This document shows positions 9,926-27,436 of a stretch of 32,494 bases of DNA, in pieces (positions within the stretch are counted from its first letter, which is position 1; every line of letters begins with the position of its first letter). The translations under genes were made by a program, and so were the position numbers. The stretch is from a virus, in the IMG/VR virus record IMGVR_UViG_3300047550_005624, positions 1 through 32,494 of that record; one strand, 5' to 3'. A model generated the notes under the pieces. That model searched no databases, had not been told where the DNA came from, and saw nothing but the letters and a program-made list of their open reading frames with translations.

Positions 9926-9972
9926 TTATTCTTGATCAATTTTTTATAACTTAATGAATAATGCGTAAAATT

Positions 9973-9980
9973 GATAAATA
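9973..9980 (+). promoter_or_regulatory. Late-type promoter box GATAAATA close to a start codon
   Basis: Same TTGATAAATA context as 9918. It ends five bases before the ATG at 9986, so RNA would begin at or beside the start codon. There is no Shine-Dalgarno before that ATG in the few bases left. Confidence 0.4.
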
Positions 9981-9985
9981 ATTGT

Positions 9986-10609
9986 ATGAAAAAACAATCA
10001 GCAGATAAATTCTTTCAAGATATTAACTTTATTAGTATTGTTGACAATATAAAAGGCATATTTACTAGTGATGGTTCAATGTCCACTTTACTAGATTTTG
10101 AACGTGTCTTAGATGAAGCAGACCTTTATGCTTTTGAAAATTGGATATCAGGTGAACTAGTTAATGGACCGGTAAACAAACGATACAGTGTAGAATGTAC
10201 TTTTATGTACCCACATAAGCTTATGCCAAATCCATTAGGAGTAAAACGTTTATTGATTTTGGGTTGTAATGTAGAGTTTGAAAAAGGTAAAATACAAATA
10301 CCAGTACAAGTCAAAGACTATGAAGATTTCCAACAAGGTACACGATATCCTAAAATGGAGACAAAGAAAGTATGGTTTGTCACTATTGAAATTCCAAAAG
10401 AATTGATGAATGAAATAAAAGAAGGATCTATTGATTTGGCAGATAAATCTATTGATTTGGAAGACATTGACAATGCTTATGAAGAAGATTTAGATAAAGA
10501 AAATCTCAGTGATCAAGATCAACAGCAAGCGGGTGCACCAGAAGGAATGGGAGCACCAATGGGAGCACCAATGGCTGGTCCTGGACCAGCACCCTTACCA
10601 CCAACATAA
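9986..10609 (+). CDS. Conserved T4-like phage protein of unknown role (probably late)
   Basis: A 207-aa protein. Its front part (KFFQDINFISIVDNIKGIF, then SDGSMSTLLDFERVLDE and CTFMYPHKLMPNPLG) resembles a hypothetical family widely shared by T4-like aquatic phages. The tail is acidic, then Gln-rich, and ends in Gly-Ala-Pro-Met repeats (MGAPMGAP), a low-complexity region. ATG 9986 is preferred to an in-frame TTG at 9971, which is merely part of the TTGATAAATA promoter box. Two late-type boxes precede it. The next gene begins three bases after its stop. Late expression suggests a virion or assembly role; not proven. Confidence 0.6.
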   Translation: MKKQSADKFFQDINFISIVDNIKGIFTSDGSMSTLLDFERVLDEADLYAFENWISGELVNGPVNKRYSVECTFMYPHKLMPNPLGVKRLLILGCNVEFEKGKIQIPVQVKDYEDFQQGTRYPKMETKKVWFVTIEIPKELMNEIKEGSIDLADKSIDLEDIDNAYEEDLDKENLSDQDQQQAGAPEGMGAPMGAPMAGPGPAPLPPT

Positions 10610-10612
10610 ACT

Positions 10613-11161
10613 ATGAAAGAAAATAAATTAATTACAGAAGGTTTAGATTTTCAAGATATGGAAAATCAAATATTCCCCACATTGACAGTAGATGAATATT
10701 CAGCAAAGATGGGTAAAGATAGTGATGTTGTTACTATCACATTTACAGTTAAGTCTGAACTTGCAGGCAATGATTTAGTTGATTGGTTCGAAAGAGGATA
10801 TGACTATGTGCTAGATGCAAGTTTAAGTACTGGTGAAGTAGAGATAGGCAAATGGTTAGTTTTCGTTGAAATGAATAGAAGATCAACAGTTCCTCAAAGA
10901 ATAGTAGAATTGTTAAAAGACTTAAAACCTTTAAGTGGGAAAAAAATAAATGAATGGAAAGTGCAGGTTGATGGTAAAGATTACCCAGCTGACGAATCTG
11001 TATTAAAAGATGTAATTATTTGCAATCCAGCCAAGTACAGAATTGCAAAAGAAGAGGAAGATGAACTCAATGAAATGAGGTCAGTGGCAAACTTAGCAAC
11101 AAAACCTTTATACGAAAAAGATCAAGAGATTAAAGATTTTGTTAATCTTGCAGGATTATAG
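10613..11161 (+). CDS. Phage protein of unknown role with a LITEG N-terminus
   Basis: A 182-aa acidic, soluble protein, coupled to the 9986 gene by a three-base gap. The N-terminus MKENKLITEG resembles T4 capsid-targeting peptides (cut after L/I-x-E by prohead protease); the potential cleavage is after Glu9. The body has a beta-alpha core (DVVTITFTVKSEL, WLVFVEMNRRSTVPQRIVELL) and a hydrophilic C-terminus. I recognise no enzyme motif. Likely late and virion related, by inference from context. Confidence 0.6.
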   Translation: MKENKLITEGLDFQDMENQIFPTLTVDEYSAKMGKDSDVVTITFTVKSELAGNDLVDWFERGYDYVLDASLSTGEVEIGKWLVFVEMNRRSTVPQRIVELLKDLKPLSGKKINEWKVQVDGKDYPADESVLKDVIICNPAKYRIAKEEEDELNEMRSVANLATKPLYEKDQEIKDFVNLAGL

Positions 11162-12488: not shown

Positions 12489-14762
12489 ATGAGTAATTCA
12501 CCAGAAATTGAATCAATTGTTGAACACGCAATTGAAGCCGCAAAGGAAAGAAATCACACCTATTGCACTGTTGAGCATTTATTGCTTGCATTGATCACTC
12601 ATAAACCATTCAAAAAGTGTCTTGCAAATTTTGGTGTTGATGTTGATTTGTTTGCAGATGAAGTAAGTGCTTATCTTAATAGTCTACATGCGATAGAGTC
12701 AAAAACTCCTGATAAGTTTCCAAAACGAACTTCTGCATTAGAACGAGTTATCAATCGTTGTATTACTCAGGTATTGTTTACAGGTAGGCGACAGGTTACA
12801 ACAATTGATCTTTATCTTAGTATTGCAAGTGAAGGTAATAGTCATGCACATTACTTTTTACTTAAGTATGGGGTCAATAAAAATGAATTTACTCATCATT
12901 GGCAAAAAACATATAAGGGTGCTGAATTTGCCAGCAATCTAAGTGAAAATCAAGCTGATGAAATTCTATCAGAGTATACCACTAACCTCACTCAACTTGC
13001 AGAAAATAACAAGCTTGAACCTGTTATTGGTCGTGATCAAGAACTAGAAGATATCATTAACATTTTTGCAAAGAGGTTCAAGAGCAATGTGTTAATGGTT
13101 GGTGACCCAGGTGTAGGTAAAACTGCAATCGTTGATGCATTAGCACAAGCTATTGTTCAAAATCAAGTACCTGATTTCTTAAAGGATCATCAACTATTCA
13201 GTCTTGAAGTGGGTAGCCTATTGGCTGGAAGTAGATATCGCGGTGATTTTGAAGAAAAGGTAAAAGCTGTCCTTGATGCATTGAATACAAAGAAGAAATC
13301 AATTCTGTTTATTGATGAAGCACACACAATGCAAGGTGCAGGTAGTGGATCAAATGGATCAGTTGATTTTGCTAACATGATCAAACCTGCAATTACTAAA
13401 GGCACATTAAAAGTTATTGCAAGCACTACATGGGAAGAATTCTATGAAAGCTTTGAAAAAGATCGTGCATTGATGCGTAGATTTTTTAAGTTGGATGTTT
13501 CAGAACCTGACACTGCTACCACTATCAGTATTCTTAACAAACTCAAGCCAAGACTTGAAGAATTTCATGATGTTTCTATTAAGGATGAAGCAATAGTTAC
13601 CGCCGTTGATTCAGCCTCACGATACATGCATGATAGGAAAAATCCAGACAAAAGTCTTGATCTGTTGGATGCTGCATGTGCAAAAATTAAGGTTGCAGGA
13701 GATAAGACTTTATCAGTTGGTAAAGAAGAAATTTATAAACAAGTTGAAAAGTTTACTGGTGTTCCTGCATCTAAGATTAAGGGCAATACAGTTGAAAAAC
13801 TAACTGATTTAGAGATAAATCTAAAGAGTAAACTATATGGTCAAGACAAGGTTCTAACCGATATCTTAGAAAGAATTTATGTGAACTTTGCTGGAATTGG
13901 TAGTGACAATAAACCAATTGGAAGTTTCTTATTTCTTGGACCAACTGGTACAGGCAAAACCGAAACTGCTAGATTGCTAAGTCAATACTTAGATATGCCT
14001 ATGCTCAAGTATGACATGAGTGAATACAGCGAAAAACATAGTGTTAGTTCATTGATTGGTCCTCCTCCTGGCTATGTAGGATTCGGTGATAGTCAAGTAC
14101 AGGGTGGAAGATTAATCAGTGATCTAAGTAAAAATCCATATAGCATTTTGCTATTTGATGAGGTAGAAAAAGCGCATCCAGATATCTTTAACATCTTTCT
14201 ACAAATGTTAGATGAAGGGTCAGTTACTGGTAGTAATGGTAAAAAAGTAATTTGTAAAAATTCAATCATCATTATGACTAGTAATTTAGGTAGTGCCGAC
14301 AATGAACGTAATAACATTGGATTTGGATCACAAGAAAAAACAGGTGAAGATGATAAGGCTTTGAAGGAGTTCTTTAAGCCAGAATTTAGAAATCGTTTGG
14401 ATTTGATTTGTAAGTTTAATAAACTAGATTCACTCGCGGTGAAGAAAATCGTAGTCAAATTTGTTGATGAACTTAAAAAGAGTCTATTCAGCAAACACAA
14501 CATTACAATCAATATGTCTGAAGAACTAATTGAACATCTAGCTGAAGTTGGCTATGATAGTAAAATGGGTGCAAGACCTTTATCTAGAAAGATTGATGAG
14601 TTGATTAAAGTTCCATTAAGTAAAAAAATCTTATTTGAAAATTTGAATAATGTAACCATTAATGCTGTGCTTATTGATGGAAAGGTAGAATTCAAAATCA
14701 CTGCTGGTAGTTTGAAACTGATTGGAAAGGTAAATAAAAATGGGATCATTGAGGTTTGCTAA
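12489..14762 (+). CDS. clpA: ClpA-type AAA+ unfoldase
   Basis: A 757-aa Hsp100 protein, almost exactly the length of E. coli ClpA (758). Order: N-terminal double-repeat domain (about 1-145, EHLLLALI), D1 AAA+ with Walker A GDPGVGKT at 205-212, Walker B LFIDEAHT, then D2 with Walker A GPTGTGKT at 484-491, FDEVEKAHPDIFNIFLQMLDEG and FKPEFRNRLD. There is no ClpB middle coiled coil. An Ile-Gly-Phe at 610-612 sits where ClpA has its Ile-Gly-Leu loop that docks on ClpP, so it could feed substrates to a ClpP. No clpP is in the window. AAAGGA precedes the ATG. It could redirect host ClpP or act as an unfoldase alone. Confidence 0.92.
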   Translation: MSNSPEIESIVEHAIEAAKERNHTYCTVEHLLLALITHKPFKKCLANFGVDVDLFADEVSAYLNSLHAIESKTPDKFPKRTSALERVINRCITQVLFTGRRQVTTIDLYLSIASEGNSHAHYFLLKYGVNKNEFTHHWQKTYKGAEFASNLSENQADEILSEYTTNLTQLAENNKLEPVIGRDQELEDIINIFAKRFKSNVLMVGDPGVGKTAIVDALAQAIVQNQVPDFLKDHQLFSLEVGSLLAGSRYRGDFEEKVKAVLDALNTKKKSILFIDEAHTMQGAGSGSNGSVDFANMIKPAITKGTLKVIASTTWEEFYESFEKDRALMRRFFKLDVSEPDTATTISILNKLKPRLEEFHDVSIKDEAIVTAVDSASRYMHDRKNPDKSLDLLDAACAKIKVAGDKTLSVGKEEIYKQVEKFTGVPASKIKGNTVEKLTDLEINLKSKLYGQDKVLTDILERIYVNFAGIGSDNKPIGSFLFLGPTGTGKTETARLLSQYLDMPMLKYDMSEYSEKHSVSSLIGPPPGYVGFGDSQVQGGRLISDLSKNPYSILLFDEVEKAHPDIFNIFLQMLDEGSVTGSNGKKVICKNSIIIMTSNLGSADNERNNIGFGSQEKTGEDDKALKEFFKPEFRNRLDLICKFNKLDSLAVKKIVVKFVDELKKSLFSKHNITINMSEELIEHLAEVGYDSKMGARPLSRKIDELIKVPLSKKILFENLNNVTINAVLIDGKVEFKITAGSLKLIGKVNKNGIIEVC

Positions 14763-16000: not shown

Positions 16001-18964
16001 ATGAAAATATCGCAAGTTACTAATAAGTTTAAATTATTTGAAGGTGGCAATCTAGCAATAGGTCCATATCAAGCACAAAGTATTGATCTAACAGCGGTTG
16101 AACGTAACACCATTATTCCTAAACTTAATCAGTTATTGCTTAGTATTGATAATCTTTACAACCAAACATATGGTGAGCCTTTGTGGGGTAAAAAGCTATT
16201 AAGCACTGGTGGTTTTTTAAGTGGTAGTAGTTTGCATTTTTTCAATCTTAAGGGTATATCTGACGAAAAATTTGTATCTAAAAAGCCAACAGTTGGTGAC
16301 ATAGATACAATGGTTGATAAAAACAAAGAACAAAACTTACAGAAGTTGCTTCTTGCCTATAATGAAAAGCAAATAGGTCCTGCAAAGTTATTAGGCTTCA
16401 AAAGAGGAAATGAACAATTTTCCGCTTTATGGGAAATTGATGATCCAAAATTATATGTTCAGATTGATTTTGAGTTTGTTGAGTTTGAAAAAGATGCACC
16501 AAGTGAGTGGGCAAAATTTAGCCATAGTAGTGCATGGGAAGATTTGCAGGCAGGAGTGAAAGGTGTATTTCATAAGTATTTGATACAGTCCTTAGCTGGA
16601 CTTACGTTAAAAAACTTTTACTTAAGAAAACTTGTAGGTAGAGGTAAATTACGTCAAGAACAAGATGTACCTACCAGTGATAATATGTATAGTTTTGCTG
16701 TAAGTTCTAAAGAAGGTGGTGGACTACGACCAAAATACGATCCAGTTATTGATCCAGCGACCGGCAAACCGTTAGTTGTTAATAAATTACCTGTAATGAC
16801 AACAGCTCCTGCAACAGGTTATATTCGTGATGTAAAAAGTATCTTCTCAAAGTTATTAGGACACAAGCTAAAAGCAACCGATATCAAAAGAATATATGAT
16901 AATTTTTGGTCCTTCACTGGGATACTTTCAGCAATGAATAATGTTCTTTCTCTTGAAGAAAAACAAAAAGTTGCTAATGATTTTATACAACGTACAATTG
17001 GACCAGGTGTTCAAGGATTATATAAAAACAATCCAGACAAAGATATTAAAGAAAAACTAGTTGCCATCGACACAATGTTAAGAGCATTTAATCTTAGTAA
17101 ACCAAACAATTTTGATTCAATGTTACAACAATATCGTCAATCTTACCGTATGGCTGATGATGAAACTCCAAAAGAAGGAGTGGTTGCAAAAATGGCTAAA
17201 AATGCATTAAAGGAAGATACTCCCAATTTCAAACGTGTTGGTATACAACACTTGTATAATCCAGGAAATAGTGCAGAACTCAAAGACCTTGACTTTATCA
17301 AACTTTGTGAAGATTTGTCAGAACAAGGTGGTAACTTAGAAAATGTGGGTATATCACTTAAAGTAGATGGTGCAGGTATACGTTTTGGTAAAGACCAAAA
17401 TGGAAATCCATTCTTCATGACCAGTCGTGTTGATAAGCCAATGTATAAACAAAATATTGGTGATTTTGAAAAATATGGTATAAGCCAGGGCCAGAATAAA
17501 GAACAATTAGAAAGAACTAAAAATTACGACAAAGCTTTGGAAACAGTTGTTACTGCTCCATTCATGAAAGATATCCCTAGTGATACTATCATTTCAGCAG
17601 AGATGTTGTTCAATCCAATGGCTATTAAAAGTGATTCAGGATTAACTTTCGTTAACATTCCGTATGACCCAAGTAAATTGGGTAAAATAATGACAATAGT
17701 ACCAATCTCTATACGTGAATTTTCTACTGGTACTATTAGTCCATATAGTAATAGAGTCTTCAACTTATTGTTTAAAAACAGTAATCCTGATATAAAGATA
17801 GTAAATATGTCATTGGAAAATCCTGGTATTGACGTAAGTTCAATTGTTGACCCTATCGCTAGAAATGCAGATAAGTTATCATCAGCGATTAAGCAACGCG
17901 GAGATACTGAAGCTAAACAAAAAGCAAAAGAAGTATTAACTCAAGCTAGAAAAGAATTAAGTGAAGCTATTTACGATAGTCCAATAGAAGGTAAGAACCA
18001 ATTGGGTGATACCATAGAAGGATTAGTTGTTAGAATGCCAAATGGATTAATGGTAAAAATTACCAGTCCAGAAATGAAACAAAAGATGTCAGCAAAGAAA
18101 AATATTACTAAAAAGTCAACTACTGACAGTAATAGAACTAAACCTGCATTTGTTACAATAGGAAGTTTTGTTGGGCATATAGGACATCAACATTTAATCA
18201 ATAAAACAATAGAGGCAGCTAAAAAAGTAAATGGTGATGTATATGTATACGTAAGTCCAAGTATGGGCCCAGATGATCCTGTACCGCCCAATGTAAAGGT
18301 AGAAACACTTAGAAAGCTATTTCCAGAAATAGCTGATAACATTCAAACTTGGAATATAGAAGGTTCACCTGTTAAGAAATTAGAAAAAGAATTAGTACTT
18401 CCTGCCAATAGTCCATACAACAAGATTGTAGTTGTAGTTGGTGAAGATCGTGTTGAGGGTTTCAAGAAGTGGTTATCTGCTTTAGAAAAACGAATGAAAG
18501 ATCCAGATGCAGTAGCAAAATATGGTGGAACACAAAATCAAGTTGATTATGATGTTATAGGTATTCCAAGAAACTCATCTGGTGGCGGGAATGACATGAG
18601 TTTCACTAGATTGCGTAATGTATTGAAAGATCCAAACAAATCAGAACAAGAACAACTGGCTGCATGGGCAAAAGGCTTTGATACAGATAAGTTAGGTTTA
18701 GGTCATGTTAAAAAAGTAATGGATATATCAAAAGCAAACATGGGTTCATTAAAAGAGCAAGTAAAACTTTTGGTAAGTCAAATCAAACCATTGTTAAAAA
18801 ATGCTACCAATGAACAAAAAGTTAAATTTTATAATCTGTTGAAAGAAGCAAAAGACGAAATCGTAGATAAAAAATCTGTAGGTACTATTCAAAAAGAATC
18901 TAGAGATGGGAACACCCAAACTAAAATATTGGGCAAATCTAACGATTATCTAGAAGAAAAATAA
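16001..18964 (+). CDS. Three-part nucleotidyltransferase fusion: Pol-beta-type NTase, ligase-like adenylation domain, NMNAT-like domain
   Basis: A 987-aa soluble protein that seems to join three nucleotidyl-transfer folds. (1) Residues ~65-200: Pol-beta NTase pattern, GFLSGSS at 71-77, Asp100-Ile-Asp102 in GDIDTMV, and a third acid at Asp156 in QIDFEF. (2) About 415-700: covalent ligase/capping core, with motif I Lys454-Val-Asp-Gly followed by AGIRFG, ISAEML as a motif-III-like segment, Glu673-Gly-Leu-Val-Val as motif IV and MVKI near 686 as motif V. (3) About 715-890: HxGH cytidylyl/NMN adenylyltransferase fold, His726-Ile-Gly-His729, VYVSPS, and SFTRLR at 867-872 as the (S)xTxxR motif. Its N-terminus has LFE-GG at 13-16, like a T4 capsid-targeting peptide. 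Substrates unknown: RNA/DNA ends or NAD metabolism are options. Confidence 0.7.
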   Translation: MKISQVTNKFKLFEGGNLAIGPYQAQSIDLTAVERNTIIPKLNQLLLSIDNLYNQTYGEPLWGKKLLSTGGFLSGSSLHFFNLKGISDEKFVSKKPTVGDIDTMVDKNKEQNLQKLLLAYNEKQIGPAKLLGFKRGNEQFSALWEIDDPKLYVQIDFEFVEFEKDAPSEWAKFSHSSAWEDLQAGVKGVFHKYLIQSLAGLTLKNFYLRKLVGRGKLRQEQDVPTSDNMYSFAVSSKEGGGLRPKYDPVIDPATGKPLVVNKLPVMTTAPATGYIRDVKSIFSKLLGHKLKATDIKRIYDNFWSFTGILSAMNNVLSLEEKQKVANDFIQRTIGPGVQGLYKNNPDKDIKEKLVAIDTMLRAFNLSKPNNFDSMLQQYRQSYRMADDETPKEGVVAKMAKNALKEDTPNFKRVGIQHLYNPGNSAELKDLDFIKLCEDLSEQGGNLENVGISLKVDGAGIRFGKDQNGNPFFMTSRVDKPMYKQNIGDFEKYGISQGQNKEQLERTKNYDKALETVVTAPFMKDIPSDTIISAEMLFNPMAIKSDSGLTFVNIPYDPSKLGKIMTIVPISIREFSTGTISPYSNRVFNLLFKNSNPDIKIVNMSLENPGIDVSSIVDPIARNADKLSSAIKQRGDTEAKQKAKEVLTQARKELSEAIYDSPIEGKNQLGDTIEGLVVRMPNGLMVKITSPEMKQKMSAKKNITKKSTTDSNRTKPAFVTIGSFVGHIGHQHLINKTIEAAKKVNGDVYVYVSPSMGPDDPVPPNVKVETLRKLFPEIADNIQTWNIEGSPVKKLEKELVLPANSPYNKIVVVVGEDRVEGFKKWLSALEKRMKDPDAVAKYGGTQNQVDYDVIGIPRNSSGGGNDMSFTRLRNVLKDPNKSEQEQLAAWAKGFDTDKLGLGHVKKVMDISKANMGSLKEQVKLLVSQIKPLLKNATNEQKVKFYNLLKEAKDEIVDKKSVGTIQKESRDGNTQTKILGKSNDYLEEK

Positions 18965-19015: not shown

Positions 19016-19909
19016 ATGGCAGAAAAGAAAACTAGAGTCAGAAAACCAAAGGCTGAGGCACAACCAGTAGTTTCGGTTGAAGCTACTGAACAACCAAAAG
19101 AAAATAAAGAACTAAAACCAGGTCAGGTACAAGTTAACGTAGATTTTCTACGTAAAACTAAAGTACACATTGCAATGCCCTGTTATGGCGGGATGCTTAC
19201 TGAAGCTACATTCATGAGTTTCATCAAGTGGGCAAACACTGCAAAGCAATTGGGAATTGAATGGACATTAGAAACAATGGTAAATGAATCGTTGATTTCT
19301 AGAGGCAGAAATACATTAACTGCAAAGTTTTTAGGTTCATCTGAAAACACAACACATTTAATGTTTATTGATGCTGATATTGGTTGGGAGCCCTGGCATT
19401 TACTTGTATTGTTAAATCGTGATGTTGATGTTATTGGTGGACTATACCCAATGAAGACTATGCCAATCAAATGGGTAGTAAATGGATTTGAGGGTGCTGA
19501 AGAAGGTGCTGATGGACTACAAGAAGTAAGTAAAGCAGGTACAGGATTCTTATTGATCAAGCGTCATGTGTTTGAAAAAATGAACGAGCATCCTGCAGTT
19601 AAACCCTACAAAAATGATATTGGTTTAGATCCTAAGTATGATCAATATTTGAAAACATATTTTGATACTGCGGTACGTGAAAATCGTTACTTGAGTGAAG
19701 ATTGGACATTCTGTTCCAACTGGCGTGATTTGAATGGTAAGATATTTGTTGATAAGCGAATTTTGTTAAGACATAGCGGAAGTTATGTATTCTCACATGA
19801 AAGTCAAGAACATTTGCTTAAAACGATTGGACCAATGTATCTTGATCAACAAATCAAAGACGGTAAAGTAAAACTAGTTGATCAAGATGGTAATACATTA
19901 CCTACTTGA
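19016..19909 (+). CDS. Glycosyltransferase, GT-A fold (GT2-like)
   Basis: A 297-aa protein with a disordered basic/Pro-rich N-terminal tail (1-45) followed by a GT-A glycosyltransferase domain. Visible: VHIAMPCYGG at the start of the nucleotide fold, SRGRN, the metal/nucleotide-binding Asp119-Ala-Asp121 in FIDADIGW, a GGLYP loop, GTGFLLIKR, and SEDWTFCSNW as the likely catalytic-base region. No signal peptide or membrane helix, so it acts in the cytoplasm. It could decorate phage DNA bases, a virion protein or a host component; the sequence does not decide. Its ribosome-binding site lies in a hairpin (18974-19009), suggesting late-timed translation. Confidence 0.75.
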   Translation: MAEKKTRVRKPKAEAQPVVSVEATEQPKENKELKPGQVQVNVDFLRKTKVHIAMPCYGGMLTEATFMSFIKWANTAKQLGIEWTLETMVNESLISRGRNTLTAKFLGSSENTTHLMFIDADIGWEPWHLLVLLNRDVDVIGGLYPMKTMPIKWVVNGFEGAEEGADGLQEVSKAGTGFLLIKRHVFEKMNEHPAVKPYKNDIGLDPKYDQYLKTYFDTAVRENRYLSEDWTFCSNWRDLNGKIFVDKRILLRHSGSYVFSHESQEHLLKTIGPMYLDQQIKDGKVKLVDQDGNTLPT

Positions 19910-19973: not shown

Positions 19974-21032
19974 ATGAATATAAAAGAGTTAAATTCGTTT
20001 AAGATGTCAGATGCTGTAAAGTTTCATGATACTTTAAACCAGAAAATTTTTAACAATGAAAAGTTAAAGCCTGAAGTAAGAAAGCAGTTATTATTAATAG
20101 CCAAAGATTTCATTACAGAGTTGGGCATTAGTGATTTGAATGTAAAAGACATAACATTAAGTGGCAGTAATGCAGCGTATAGTTATACCAAACATAGTGA
20201 TTTAGATTTACATGTTTTAGTTGACATGAGCAAATTATCTGATGACGATGTATATCAAGAGTTGTTTAGTGCGAAGAAATTTTTGTATAATGAAAATTAT
20301 GATATTAAGGTTCATGGTATTCCTGTAGAGTTATATGTTCAAGATAGTAATGAACCAGTTGTTAGTTTAGGTGAATATAGTGTTAAGAATGATAAGTGGA
20401 TCAAGTTGCCAATAAAACGTAAAGCTAATTTAGATCAACATGCTACAAGATTAAAGTATGAAAAACTTAAGGCAGTAGTGTTGAATTCGTTGAAGGCTAC
20501 CAAATCTTCACAAGTTGAAAAAATTACAAATAAGATAAGACGATATAGACAAGCAGGACTAGACAAAGGTGGAGAATTTTCACCTGAAAATCTTGCTTAC
20601 AAAATGCTTAGATCACAAGGATACATAACCAAATTATATGATTTAAGAAACAAGTTACATGGACAAGAATTGACCATTGAAACTATGTATAAGCAATCAT
20701 TTGAAGAAGATGCTACAATGCAATTTGCTGCTGAAAAAACACCAGTTATAAGTCCATATAGCGGAATCAAAGACAACCAATTTCGCGGAGCGATAAGTGA
20801 GATGCCAGATACATCTGGCCCAGTTGGTGTGCAACCAGGTGGTTGGAGAAAGTATAAACCCAAAACGACAGAAGGTGCTTCAGGATATATTCCCAGCAAT
20901 GCTGAAAAGGATGATCCAAGATTTAAAACAGCATTAACGGTTGATGTTAGGCCTAATTCATTACAAAAAAATGCAAAAGCGTTTGGATTTAAGGTAAAAA
21001 GATCAGGTATTCCACCAACGTTAAAACCATAA
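19974..21032 (+). CDS. Second Pol-beta superfamily nucleotidyltransferase
   Basis: A 352-aa protein. Residues 55-125 carry the classic NTase signature: LSGSNA with Gly64-Ser65, then Asp76-Leu-Asp78 in HSDLDLHVLVD and a third acid at Glu119 in IPVELYV, which together bind the metal ions and nucleotide. Residues 130-250 are helical and basic (IKRKANLDQHATRLKYEKLK). The last ~90 residues are Gly/Pro-rich and end in EKDDPRFKTALTVDVRPN and AFGFKVKRSGIPP, which looks like a separate tail module. Substrate unknown; tRNA-like, antibiotic-like and protein targets all occur in this superfamily. It starts right after a late-type box and has no Shine-Dalgarno. Confidence 0.75.
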   Translation: MNIKELNSFKMSDAVKFHDTLNQKIFNNEKLKPEVRKQLLLIAKDFITELGISDLNVKDITLSGSNAAYSYTKHSDLDLHVLVDMSKLSDDDVYQELFSAKKFLYNENYDIKVHGIPVELYVQDSNEPVVSLGEYSVKNDKWIKLPIKRKANLDQHATRLKYEKLKAVVLNSLKATKSSQVEKITNKIRRYRQAGLDKGGEFSPENLAYKMLRSQGYITKLYDLRNKLHGQELTIETMYKQSFEEDATMQFAAEKTPVISPYSGIKDNQFRGAISEMPDTSGPVGVQPGGWRKYKPKTTEGASGYIPSNAEKDDPRFKTALTVDVRPNSLQKNAKAFGFKVKRSGIPPTLKP

Positions 21033-24478: not shown

Positions 24479-24922
24479 ATGTTAGTTGATACTTTAAAAA
24501 TTTTATTTGCATCAAGTTATGCATTTGCAATTAAGGCACAGCATTTTCACTGGAACATTGAATCACCAGACTTTCCTCAGTACCATAAATTTTTTGGTGA
24601 TATATACGAAGAAGTTTTTGATAACGCAATTGATCAACTTGCCGAATATGTAAGAGTATTAGATAGCTATACTCCTGGCAGTTTAACAAGAATAAAAGAA
24701 CTTTCACAAATAGAAGATCAACTTAAAATTCCAAGAGCAGAATTAATGATGGCAGAACTGTACGAAGATAATACTAAGTTACTTCAAATGTTTAAACAAG
24801 CATTTCATGTAGCAGAACAAGAAGATGAACAAGGTATAGCTGATTTTATCGCTAGTAGAATTGATGCTCATGGTAAACATGGTTGGATGTTGAGAAGCAC
24901 TCTTAAGAAAGATAGGGCATGA
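24479..24922 (+). CDS. Dps/ferritin-like protein
   Basis: A 147-aa four-helix protein resembling Dps (DNA-binding protein from starved cells), which oxidises Fe(II) and stores iron to protect DNA from hydroxyl radicals. The Dps hallmark HFHWN is at residues 22-26 with His24, followed by His36 (12 later, as in Dps) and Asp52...Glu56 in NAIDQLAEYVRVL, matching the intersubunit ferroxidase ligands within one residue. The C-terminal helix has DAHGKHGWMLR. It lacks the Lys-rich N-terminal tail of E. coli Dps. AAGG lies before the ATG. It overlaps the next gene as ATGA. Protection of phage or host DNA is inference. Confidence 0.75.
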   Translation: MLVDTLKILFASSYAFAIKAQHFHWNIESPDFPQYHKFFGDIYEEVFDNAIDQLAEYVRVLDSYTPGSLTRIKELSQIEDQLKIPRAELMMAELYEDNTKLLQMFKQAFHVAEQEDEQGIADFIASRIDAHGKHGWMLRSTLKKDRA

Positions 24923-25877: not shown

Positions 25878-26009
25878 ATGCCCTGGTATTGGCACCTATA
25901 TCATCTTTGCTGGGTAATAGGACCAATACTAAGTTTTTACTTTTTGGGTGTTTCTATAACACTTGTCCTATTACTACTTGTTGCATGTTATTTTTTTGTA
26001 TTCAATTAG
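25878..26009 (+). CDS. Small 43-aa membrane protein
   Basis: An open frame from ATG 25878 to TAG 26009, one base after the nuclease stop, so probably translated by re-initiation. It encodes 43 residues: an aromatic head (MPWYWHLYHLCW) and one or two membrane segments from about 13 to 43 (VIGPILSFYFLG, then VSITLVLLLLVACYFF). It has almost no charged residues. Too short for a family assignment. Candidates are an inner-membrane partner of the exported nuclease, a superinfection-exclusion peptide or an antiholin-like protein; all are inference. No separate ribosome-binding site is seen. Confidence 0.5.
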   Translation: MPWYWHLYHLCWVIGPILSFYFLGVSITLVLLLLVACYFFVFN

Positions 26010-26017
26010 CATAAATA
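26010..26017 (+). promoter_or_regulatory. Late-type promoter box CATAAATA close to a start codon
   Basis: In TTAGCATAAATATAC, five bases before the ATG at 26023. No Shine-Dalgarno fits before that ATG. Confidence 0.45.
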
Positions 26018-26022
26018 TACTC

Positions 26023-26604
26023 ATGATTACAGAAGATTTTGTTCCAGAAGCCGCAGCTATTGAATTAGCAAAAAAACTACCTGGTCTTGCCAAACATAAT
26101 TACGGCACTATTGATAAACTTATGCAACGAATTGCAAAGAAGCATCAAATTACCGGTGATAACCTGCATAAATTGTTTATCAAAAAATACAAAAAAACAC
26201 CTGATAGTTGGATCAAAGATAAGCTTAATGAAAAGCAAACTTCTGACAGTTTAAATATACCATCTGAAGTTGAAAAATTTGCACGATGGGCCGGTGAAAA
26301 ATTAAAACTTGAAAAAATTCCCAAAATACATTTAAGCTACGATACAAAAGAAGCACAGGATCAACATCATACTGGTAAACATATAGAAGGTTCTGACTAT
26401 GTTTGGGTATACGCTAAGAATCGTAATCTAGTGGATATACTCAGAACGGTATTTCACGAACTTACTCATGTACGTCAAGGCGAATTGGGAATGATAAAAC
26501 CCGGATCTAGTTATCCTGGAAGTCCAATTGAAGCACAGGCTGACGTAATGGCGGGCAAATACATCAAGATTTATGGGGCGAGCCATCATAAGATATTTCA
26601 GTAA
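26023..26604 (+). CDS. Zinc metallopeptidase-like protein (HExxH)
   Basis: A 193-aa protein. Residues 20-70 form a helical module (GLAKHNYGTIDKLMQRIAKK ... TPDSWIKDKL) that recurs in T4-like aquatic phages. Residues 80-193 form a minimal metallopeptidase: His145-Glu-Leu-Thr-His149 in VFHELTHVRQ, then YPGSPIE with Glu170 as a probable third zinc ligand. ATG 26023 is preferred to a TTG at 25963 because of the late box just upstream and because the upstream part codes for the small membrane protein in another frame. The last 41 bases overlap the end of a minus-strand endonuclease gene. Role unknown: virion protease or wall-related enzyme. Confidence 0.7.
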   Translation: MITEDFVPEAAAIELAKKLPGLAKHNYGTIDKLMQRIAKKHQITGDNLHKLFIKKYKKTPDSWIKDKLNEKQTSDSLNIPSEVEKFARWAGEKLKLEKIPKIHLSYDTKEAQDQHHTGKHIEGSDYVWVYAKNRNLVDILRTVFHELTHVRQGELGMIKPGSSYPGSPIEAQADVMAGKYIKIYGASHHKIFQ

Positions 26605-27436
26605 ATGAATGATCTATTAAATTAATCAATTCATCAACATTAACAGTTTCGGTCCATCCATCAACAACTGTGGTTGAATCCATAACACCACAATTAATTT
26701 TTCTTTTAATATTATTTTCCCAATTTAACGCTTGATCTCCTTGTGCTTCTGATTTAATATATCCACGAAGGAATGGACCTTTAGATTTGATATGCTCTGC
26801 TTTTCGTCTTTTCCAATTATTAGTAATGCCAAATTTTATATAGTTATCATAACATAGAACATAACAATATGCAGGTAAATTTGGATTAAACCCATATTTT
26901 GCACATTTAGGACATCCTGATTTATTGTGTAAAACATTACTTATTATGGTATTCCACTTGTGTCCAGAATCACATTGAAATGTTCCATAATTACTTACCG
27001 AACTAGATTCAGTCAATAAGGTAATTCTCTTTTTTGTAATAACTTTGTTTATTTTTTCTTTATCTAATTTCCTTCCATTGCAATAAACACATCCAATTTT
27101 TTTAATCAATATAGGTCTACCTGAAAATATTCTAGAACAGGTATTGCATTTAAAATTCATATATGTCGTATTGCTTTTGTACTCTGTTACCATCTCAATG
27201 TTTAATGGTTTTATTGCCGTCTCAAAATCAGTTAACCAGTTTACCTTACGAGATATTAAATCACATTTCCTGCATCCATTTCTAGCTAAAACACTATTAA
27301 TAGTTGCCATCCAACGATGACCATTAATGCATTCAAATTCGGCTTTATCTTTGGTAATAGAATGATCGCCCAACATTTTTATATTTCTAGGTGCAAGCCT
27401 TTTGTTTATTTCTGATATTGTGATTGGAGGTGACAT
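26564..27436 (-). CDS. Free-standing homing-endonuclease-like protein: zinc-finger repeats plus GIY-YIG domain
   Basis: A 290-aa protein. Three related zinc-finger units, each with a C-x(2-3)-(G)H/C...GC-x2-C pattern: Cys36/His40/Cys55/Cys58, Cys97/Cys100/Cys116/Cys119 and Cys155/His159/Cys175/Cys178, the sort seen in DUF4379-like DNA-binding repeats. The C-terminal part is a compact GIY-YIG nuclease: YVL at 192-194, IKFGIT at 200-205, Arg210/Arg211, His215 and Glu240. Phage proteins with this build are usually mobile homing endonucleases cutting an allele without the insert. It is transcribed opposite to its neighbours, has AAGGA six bases before the ATG and its own late-type box at 27453-27460. 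It overlaps the metallopeptidase 3' end by 41 bases. Confidence 0.75.
   Translation of the reverse strand: MSPPITISEINKRLAPRNIKMLGDHSITKDKAEFECINGHRWMATINSVLARNGCRKCDLISRKVNWLTDFETAIKPLNIEMVTEYKSNTTYMNFKCNTCSRIFSGRPILIKKIGCVYCNGRKLDKEKINKVITKKRITLLTESSSVSNYGTFQCDSGHKWNTIISNVLHNKSGCPKCAKYGFNPNLPAYCYVLCYDNYIKFGITNNWKRRKAEHIKSKGPFLRGYIKSEAQGDQALNWENNIKRKINCGVMDSTTVVDGWTETVNVDELINLIDHSFTEISYDGSPHKS

Follow-up and report, generated by a model that had tools for sequence, protein, structure and literature searches.

Why would a phage place three nucleotidyl-transferring enzymes on a single polypeptide? The question is raised by the window analysed here, a 32,494-bp IMG/VR virus record (all coordinates refer to this whole stretch). 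In it, an unbroken open reading frame at 16001-18964 (+), with its ATG at 16001 and its stop ending at 18964, encodes a protein of 987 amino acids (aa). An earlier note, made from the letters alone, had read three nucleotidyl-transfer folds in this protein, and the motifs it named are present in the one frame: GFLSGSS, GDID (D100, D102), QIDFEF (D156), K454-VDG, EGLVV (E673-G674), MVKI (K686), HIGH (726-729) and SFTRLR (867-872). The three folds have intact active sites, they are associated near-obligately among relatives, and a conserved pattern of predicted cut sites accompanies them. That note did not describe the leader, these predicted sites, the genes around the frame or the wide conservation.

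The protein begins with a 14-aa leader (MKISQVTNKFKLFE; 16001..16042, +), a predicted capsid-targeting propeptide that ends in LxE before the sequence GGN (E14/G15, the slash marking a predicted cut here and below). It is followed by NT (aa 15-385; 16043..17155, +), a nucleotidyltransferase of the Pol-beta superfamily with Asp100, Asp102 and Asp156, which matches phrog_19290. A linker (17156..17215, +) containing a predicted prohead-protease site, NALKE/D (E405/D406), leads to LIG (aa 406-703; 17216..18109, +), a covalent nucleotidyltransferase of the ligase type with K454-VDG, E534, E673-G and K686. The third domain, HIGH (aa 708-915; 18122..18745, +), is an adenylyltransferase of the HIGH superfamily carrying HIGH at 726-729 and SFTRLR at 867-872, with matches to phrog_3041 and phrog_395. 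The chain is closed by a variable tail ending in DYLEEK (18746..18961, +), which in relatives holds extra domains and further [LIV]xE sites.

The structural check that the earlier note had called for, by AlphaFold2 models and fold searches with Foldseek and VIA, supports all three assignments. The NT model is confident (predicted local distance difference test, pLDDT, 94.3; predicted template modelling score, pTM, 0.89), and its fold matches include Pol mu, Pol lambda, Pol beta, TdT, TUT7 and GLD-2. The VIA rows belong to the Pol-beta superfamily only, with a root-mean-square deviation of 2.8-3.9 and a best Z score of 8.1, a value that is middling taken alone and consistent with the motifs. 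Together with these rows, the conserved GFLSGSS, D100, D102 and D156 place NT in the Pol-beta superfamily. None of the 48 NT sequences searched matches a Pfam family at E<=0.01, though NT may still be a distant relative of RlaP (RNA-ligase-associated Pol-beta), and a PDB profile search with NT gave no match.

LIG and HIGH were modelled together (pLDDT 89.8, pTM 0.58), the low pTM being consistent with a flexible joint between them. The best Foldseek matches of LIG are an archaeal RNA ligase (5d1o, probability 1.00), a tRNA ligase (6n0t, 1.00) and T4 Rnl2 (2hvq, 0.99). The adenylyltransferase fold and the invariant K454, D456, G457, E534, E673, G674 and K686 identify LIG as a covalent nucleotidyltransferase. 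At the profile level, Pfam RNA_ligase (PF09414) did not match the window protein, LIG of the window class matched no RNA-ligase profile, and a PDB profile search with LIG returned nothing meaningful.

HIGH shows a Rossmann-like fold, conserved T869 and R872 in addition to its signature, and a VIA Z score of 13.8 to phosphopantetheine adenylyltransferase (PPAT) and of about 12 to NMNAT, with FAD synthetase also among the fold matches. By sequence, its nearest kin is FAD synthetase: Pfam FAD_syn is found in 24 of 38 members and falls below cut-off in the window protein, and a PDB profile search returned RibF only. Enzymes of this superfamily adenylate a phosphate and so create a pyrophosphate linkage, as is established for NMNAT, PPAT and FAD synthetase. 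The products of NMNAT and FAD synthetase contain the same 5'-5' linkage as the activated 5' end in RNA ligation. HIGH could make a donor, recycle NMN or act on RNA.

Loss of the catalytic residues in homologues, which would speak against these assignments, is not what the relatives show. Relatives were drawn from viral contigs and can be aligned to the window protein over its full length. The catalytic residues of NT, LIG and HIGH are kept in an alignment of eight sequences (41-59% identity). In the larger sets of 48 NT and 38 LIG-HIGH sequences, D100, D102, D156, K454, D456, G457, E534, E673, G674, K686, H726, G728, H729 and R872 are invariant or at least 90% conserved, and such conservation across dozens of relatives rules out chance matches to the motifs. 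Nor is the fusion an assembly artefact, because it recurs in 58 distinct loci. A bacterial origin was likewise rejected, one scan of genome contigs with NT giving a single match, on the contig of a metagenome-assembled genome, and so was a role as a defence-system protein, for which PADLOC returned no match.

The combination recurs: of the 77 loci whose NT sequences are distinct, 58 encode the full NT-LIG-HIGH fusion, and in most of the others the parts are adjoining genes. Five arrangements occur: the complete fusion; three separate genes in the order NT, LIG, HIGH (Xanthomonas phage X1 and L058) or LIG, NT, HIGH (L057); NT followed by a LIG-HIGH gene (L047, L055, L056, L059, L060 and Vibrio phages); and an NT-LIG gene followed by HIGH (L044). 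LIG stands beside or is fused to NT in 74 of the 77 loci, the exceptions being Campylobacter phages (in trans), L116 (contig end) and L134, and HIGH lies in cis in 68 (L060 counted by eye). The phage collection has NT in 22 records (6 Vibrio, 15 Campylobacter and X1), and LIG-HIGH is present in exactly these phages, as separate genes in X1. Cultured Campylobacter phages retain all parts, even with the NT and LIG-HIGH genes of CJLB-12 some 58 kb apart. A search of the available library found no paper on the trio.

The LIG slot holds two classes, A with the window protein and B with the Vibrio and Campylobacter phages, L055, L059 and L060. A single LIG family is not claimed, because hhalign aligned motif IV alone between the two (probability 3%). 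Three of five class B members match Pfam RNA_ligase, the one score shown being E 1.4e-4, below cut-off. That two ligase types share the same partners points to ligation as the activity the system requires. In three loci (L055, L059 by reading, and L073), the gene immediately after the ligase encodes a calcineurin-type phosphoesterase, an enzyme that would be fitting for the healing of RNA ends. At L053:11065-13017, LIG is fused to DUF6267 (Pfam E 4.7e-35), which has KWDG and EGFVV motifs of its own and, judged by these, is possibly another unrecognised ligase-like phage family; literature searches on DUF6267 and cytitidyltransferase found no papers. In phage X1, a 334-aa gene between NT and LIG (L011:13008-14012) has a KKVDG stretch and no family match.

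T4 gp21 cleaves after L/I-X-E, and T4 internal proteins bear capsid-targeting propeptides of 10-19 residues that it removes, Alt being processed at both ends (PMC9026906). All 64 distinct leaders found before NT end in [LIV]xE directly at GGN, 57 of them in [LI]xE, and that of the window in LFE; a leader ending in L/I-x-E at a conserved mature start is a mark of T4-type head-packaged internal proteins. In a shuffle control on the first 39 leaders, 39 were observed where the shuffles gave a mean of 1.8 and a maximum of 8. Unfused leaderless NT genes begin M-GGN, which would give the two forms an identical mature N-terminus. The NT-LIG linkers are otherwise very divergent, and all 35 scored contain [LIV]xE (shuffles 11.5 +/- 2.6, maximum 24), 32 of them as [LIV]xE[ADE] (3.8 +/- 1.8, maximum 13); eight loci (three distinct linker sequences) outside the boundary pattern were left out of this scoring. 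No site occurs in 47 short linkers at the LIG-HIGH joint. After HIGH, a site lies within the first 70 aa of the tail in 41 of 55 cases (shuffles 16.8 +/- 3.3), and [LIVM]xE lies within the last 12 residues of 28 of 52 distinct C-termini (13.5 +/- 2.8).

The gp23 proteins of the same phages serve as a positive control for the motif, with LNE/A, LAE/A, LEE/A or LSE/S at residues 41-49. A search of 27 records found an S77 prohead protease in 11, with near-complete relatives and X1, Vibrio and Campylobacter phages among them; the remainder may be fragmentary, and the window record is not long enough to judge by. In L054, NT and LIG are separate genes with near-identical leaders, MKSFKQFLNE/GGN and MKTFKQFLTE/SEV. 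The leaders of T4 IPII and IPIII are likewise identical (PMC9026906). As a separate observation, an HExxH metallopeptidase-like domain, recognised by eye, precedes NT in the longer polyproteins of L019 and L050, with ISE or IME/GGN kept at the junction.

The explanation we favour, and to which we give an even chance, is that the protein is a polyvalent polyprotein of T4-like phages, targeted to the head, cut, injected, and mending or modifying RNA ends early in infection. The 14-residue leader would direct the polyprotein to the prohead core, and during head maturation a T4-type prohead protease would cut after LFE (residue 14) and LKE (residue 405), giving an NT that starts with GGN and a LIG-HIGH protein. 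Both products would stay inside the head and pass into the host alongside the DNA, where they would meet broken or foreign-ended RNA. There, NT may add or restore nucleotides at 3' ends, as has been proposed for RlaP acting with an RNA ligase (PMC7824862), and LIG may adenylate 5' phosphates and seal. The NMNAT/PPAT-like HIGH may make or recycle an adenylated compound with a 5'-5' linkage, perhaps NAD-like, that the reaction uses. Cleavage, packaging, injection, RNA as the substrate and the role of HIGH are what we infer, packaging with good though indirect support. The earlier note had suggested that the protein could activate, transfer and seal RNA ends. RNA-end chemistry is plausible, since the second LIG class matches Pfam RNA_ligase below cut-off and nucleotidyltransferases and RNA ligases are known to be paired in repair (PMC7824862). 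The part of the suggestion in which one chain performs all three steps is probably wrong, because conserved prohead-protease-type sites precede NT and separate it from LIG.

Several observations weigh against this explanation. Leaderless versions exist (X1, Vibrio, L055-L060); as they would not be packaged by the leader route, packaging cannot apply to every member. In Campylobacter phages, NT has a leader but the LIG-HIGH gene lacks one, and the NT homologue CPT_0100 is not listed in the published CP220 virion gel, an assay of 11 bands that is not sensitive. The shuffle controls ignore relatedness among the sequences, and HIGH is absent from the neighbourhood of a few loci. Rnl1 is also encoded in some module-bearing phages; the module is therefore unlikely to be a spare T4-type ligase, and the second ligase must do something else.

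The substrate of the same packaged polyprotein could be DNA, NT and LIG then processing or joining injected genome ends or breaks as an end-joining kit. Among the structures matched by NT, Pol mu and Pol lambda align over the greatest length (168-187 residues, Z about 7-8), DNA ligases are among the LIG matches of Foldseek, and phage DNA is what injected proteins meet first. We nevertheless consider a DNA substrate unlikely, as the best LIG matches are RNA and tRNA ligases, class B LIG matches Pfam RNA_ligase, and the OB-fold domain that follows the adenylation domain in DNA ligases could not be accommodated in the short joint between LIG and HIGH. It is likewise improbable that the motifs of leader and linker have nothing to do with a protease and that the fusion works in the cytoplasm as a multi-enzyme synthesised during infection. 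Cleavage is predicted from a sequence motif, [LIV]xE is short, and the leaderless versions are presumably cytoplasmic; against this, the glutamate stands exactly at the GGN boundary in every distinct leader, the same GGN end opens the leaderless genes, the linker sites are far above shuffles, and an S77 protease and a matching gp23 site occur in the same phages.

HIGH could instead be the key activity, an NMNAT-like enzyme that counters NAD-depleting defences by restoring NAD+ or a related dinucleotide, with NT and LIG making or consuming related adenylated compounds. Phage NAD salvage is established (PMC9503650), the fold fits both PPAT and NMNAT, and the unfused HIGH of X1 matches archaeal NMNAT models (E=2e-8, below cut-off) with a GRFQPxHxGH signature. 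The window HIGH resembles FAD synthetase and PPAT more than NMNAT, the most constant pair is NT with LIG while HIGH is absent near several loci, and no NadV-type partner is seen in the window, all of which makes this reading doubtful. A further variant, which we regard as quite improbable, keeps the head-delivered, protease-activated kit and has HIGH act on RNA itself, adding an adenylated or NAD-type cap to the 5' end post-transcriptionally or taking it off; according to a review, no enzyme for such an activity had been described (PMC8131947). The least probable reading by our judgement, and a distant one, is that NT nucleotidylylates host proteins while LIG and HIGH serve separate purposes. 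A survey of polyvalent proteins (PMC5512222) places Pol-beta nucleotidyltransferases among their protein-modifying domains and proposes such a role; the near-obligate pairing of NT with the ligase, even when unfused or in trans, argues instead for a shared pathway.

Four known systems share features with this one. In the phage systems of RlaP and an ATP-grasp RNA ligase (PMC7824862), a Pol-beta nucleotidyltransferase is likewise found with an RNA-ligase-type enzyme in large phages and is predicted to restore nucleotides before sealing, and the genomic association with an RNA-ligase-type gene is seen here as well; unlike in those systems, NT matches no Pfam family, the window-class LIG matches no RNA-ligase profile, and HIGH, a head-targeting leader and cut sites are added. 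With T4 internal proteins and Alt (PMC9026906), the polyprotein shares a short N-terminal leader ending in L/I-x-E, an Alt-like C-terminal site motif and an S77 protease in the genomes of relatives, whereas here a multi-enzyme polyprotein has internal cut sites and its packaging is a prediction. With polyvalent proteins, it shares several enzymatic domains of unrelated kinds within a single chain, variable tails (lysozyme, amidoligase, HD, nucleotidyltransferase), a virion-gene context and predicted injection. What differs is the conserved NT-LIG-HIGH core in T4-like phages, the consulted passages of that survey (PMC5512222) describing no RNA-ligase core in polyvalent proteins, and the predicted processing, here by prohead protease and not by an internal peptidase. 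Phage NadM/NadR-type NAD salvage (PMC9503650) shares the HIGH-superfamily domain; here it is fused to or beside a ligase and a nucleotidyltransferase, and no Nudix, kinase or NadV partner is seen.

The tails and neighbours bear out the polyvalent character, with disparate enzymatic domains in one chain and virion genes nearby. Lysozyme with LysM is among the tail domains, and the lysozyme in the tail of L029 matches 'internal virion lysozyme'. The tail of L020 contains an amidoligase and a second nucleotidyltransferase, those of L016 (HD_4) and L082 HD domains, and that of L090 GP88. The amidoligase occurs with DUF6934 in the L020 and L124 tails. Two virion structural genes (9971..11161, +; phrog_12928 and phrog_13138) lie upstream in the window, the second with the leader MKENKLITE/G, and T4-like genes for clamp loader, sliding clamp, DNA polymerase (by reading) and a ClpB-like ATPase are present. 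The separate Pol-beta-type nucleotidyltransferase that the earlier note had placed downstream is there (19974..21032, +; phrog_36119, Pfam NTP_transf_2 E=0.0036, below cut-off); its relatives lie near 21 of the 77 loci, within the same polypeptide in L020, and also match the fused frame in L112 and L124.

Other genes of the window are noted for their positions. The ClpB/ClpA-like AAA+ ATPase (12489-14762; phrog_4871, E 1.7e-237) has a homologue in the fetched flanks of 48 of the 77 loci and may be a fixed neighbour of NT. A phrog_1574 protein (19016-19909) reads like a glycosyltransferase and has homologues near 16 of the 77, and a small phrog_3636 protein (24479-24922; DNA binding) reads like Dps/ferritin, a similar gene following NT in L134. 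An HExxH metallopeptidase-like protein, to which the domain before NT in L019 and L050 is similar by eye, is encoded at 25963-26604, and just before the DNA polymerase an endonuclease gene (26564-27436, -; phrog_681) is possibly a mobile element.

If the favoured explanation is true, some T4-like phages deliver enzymes for repairing or modifying RNA ends together with their DNA, ahead of any phage gene expression, at a time when infection could still be stopped by anticodon nucleases and other defences that cut RNA. The repertoire of RNA repair would then gain an uncharacterised three-enzyme system in which a HIGH nucleotidyltransferase is the unexpected partner, and concrete predicted cut sites are provided. 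The findings also suggest that polyvalent proteins can arise by fusion of adjoining leader-bearing genes, the leaders persisting as cleavable linkers.
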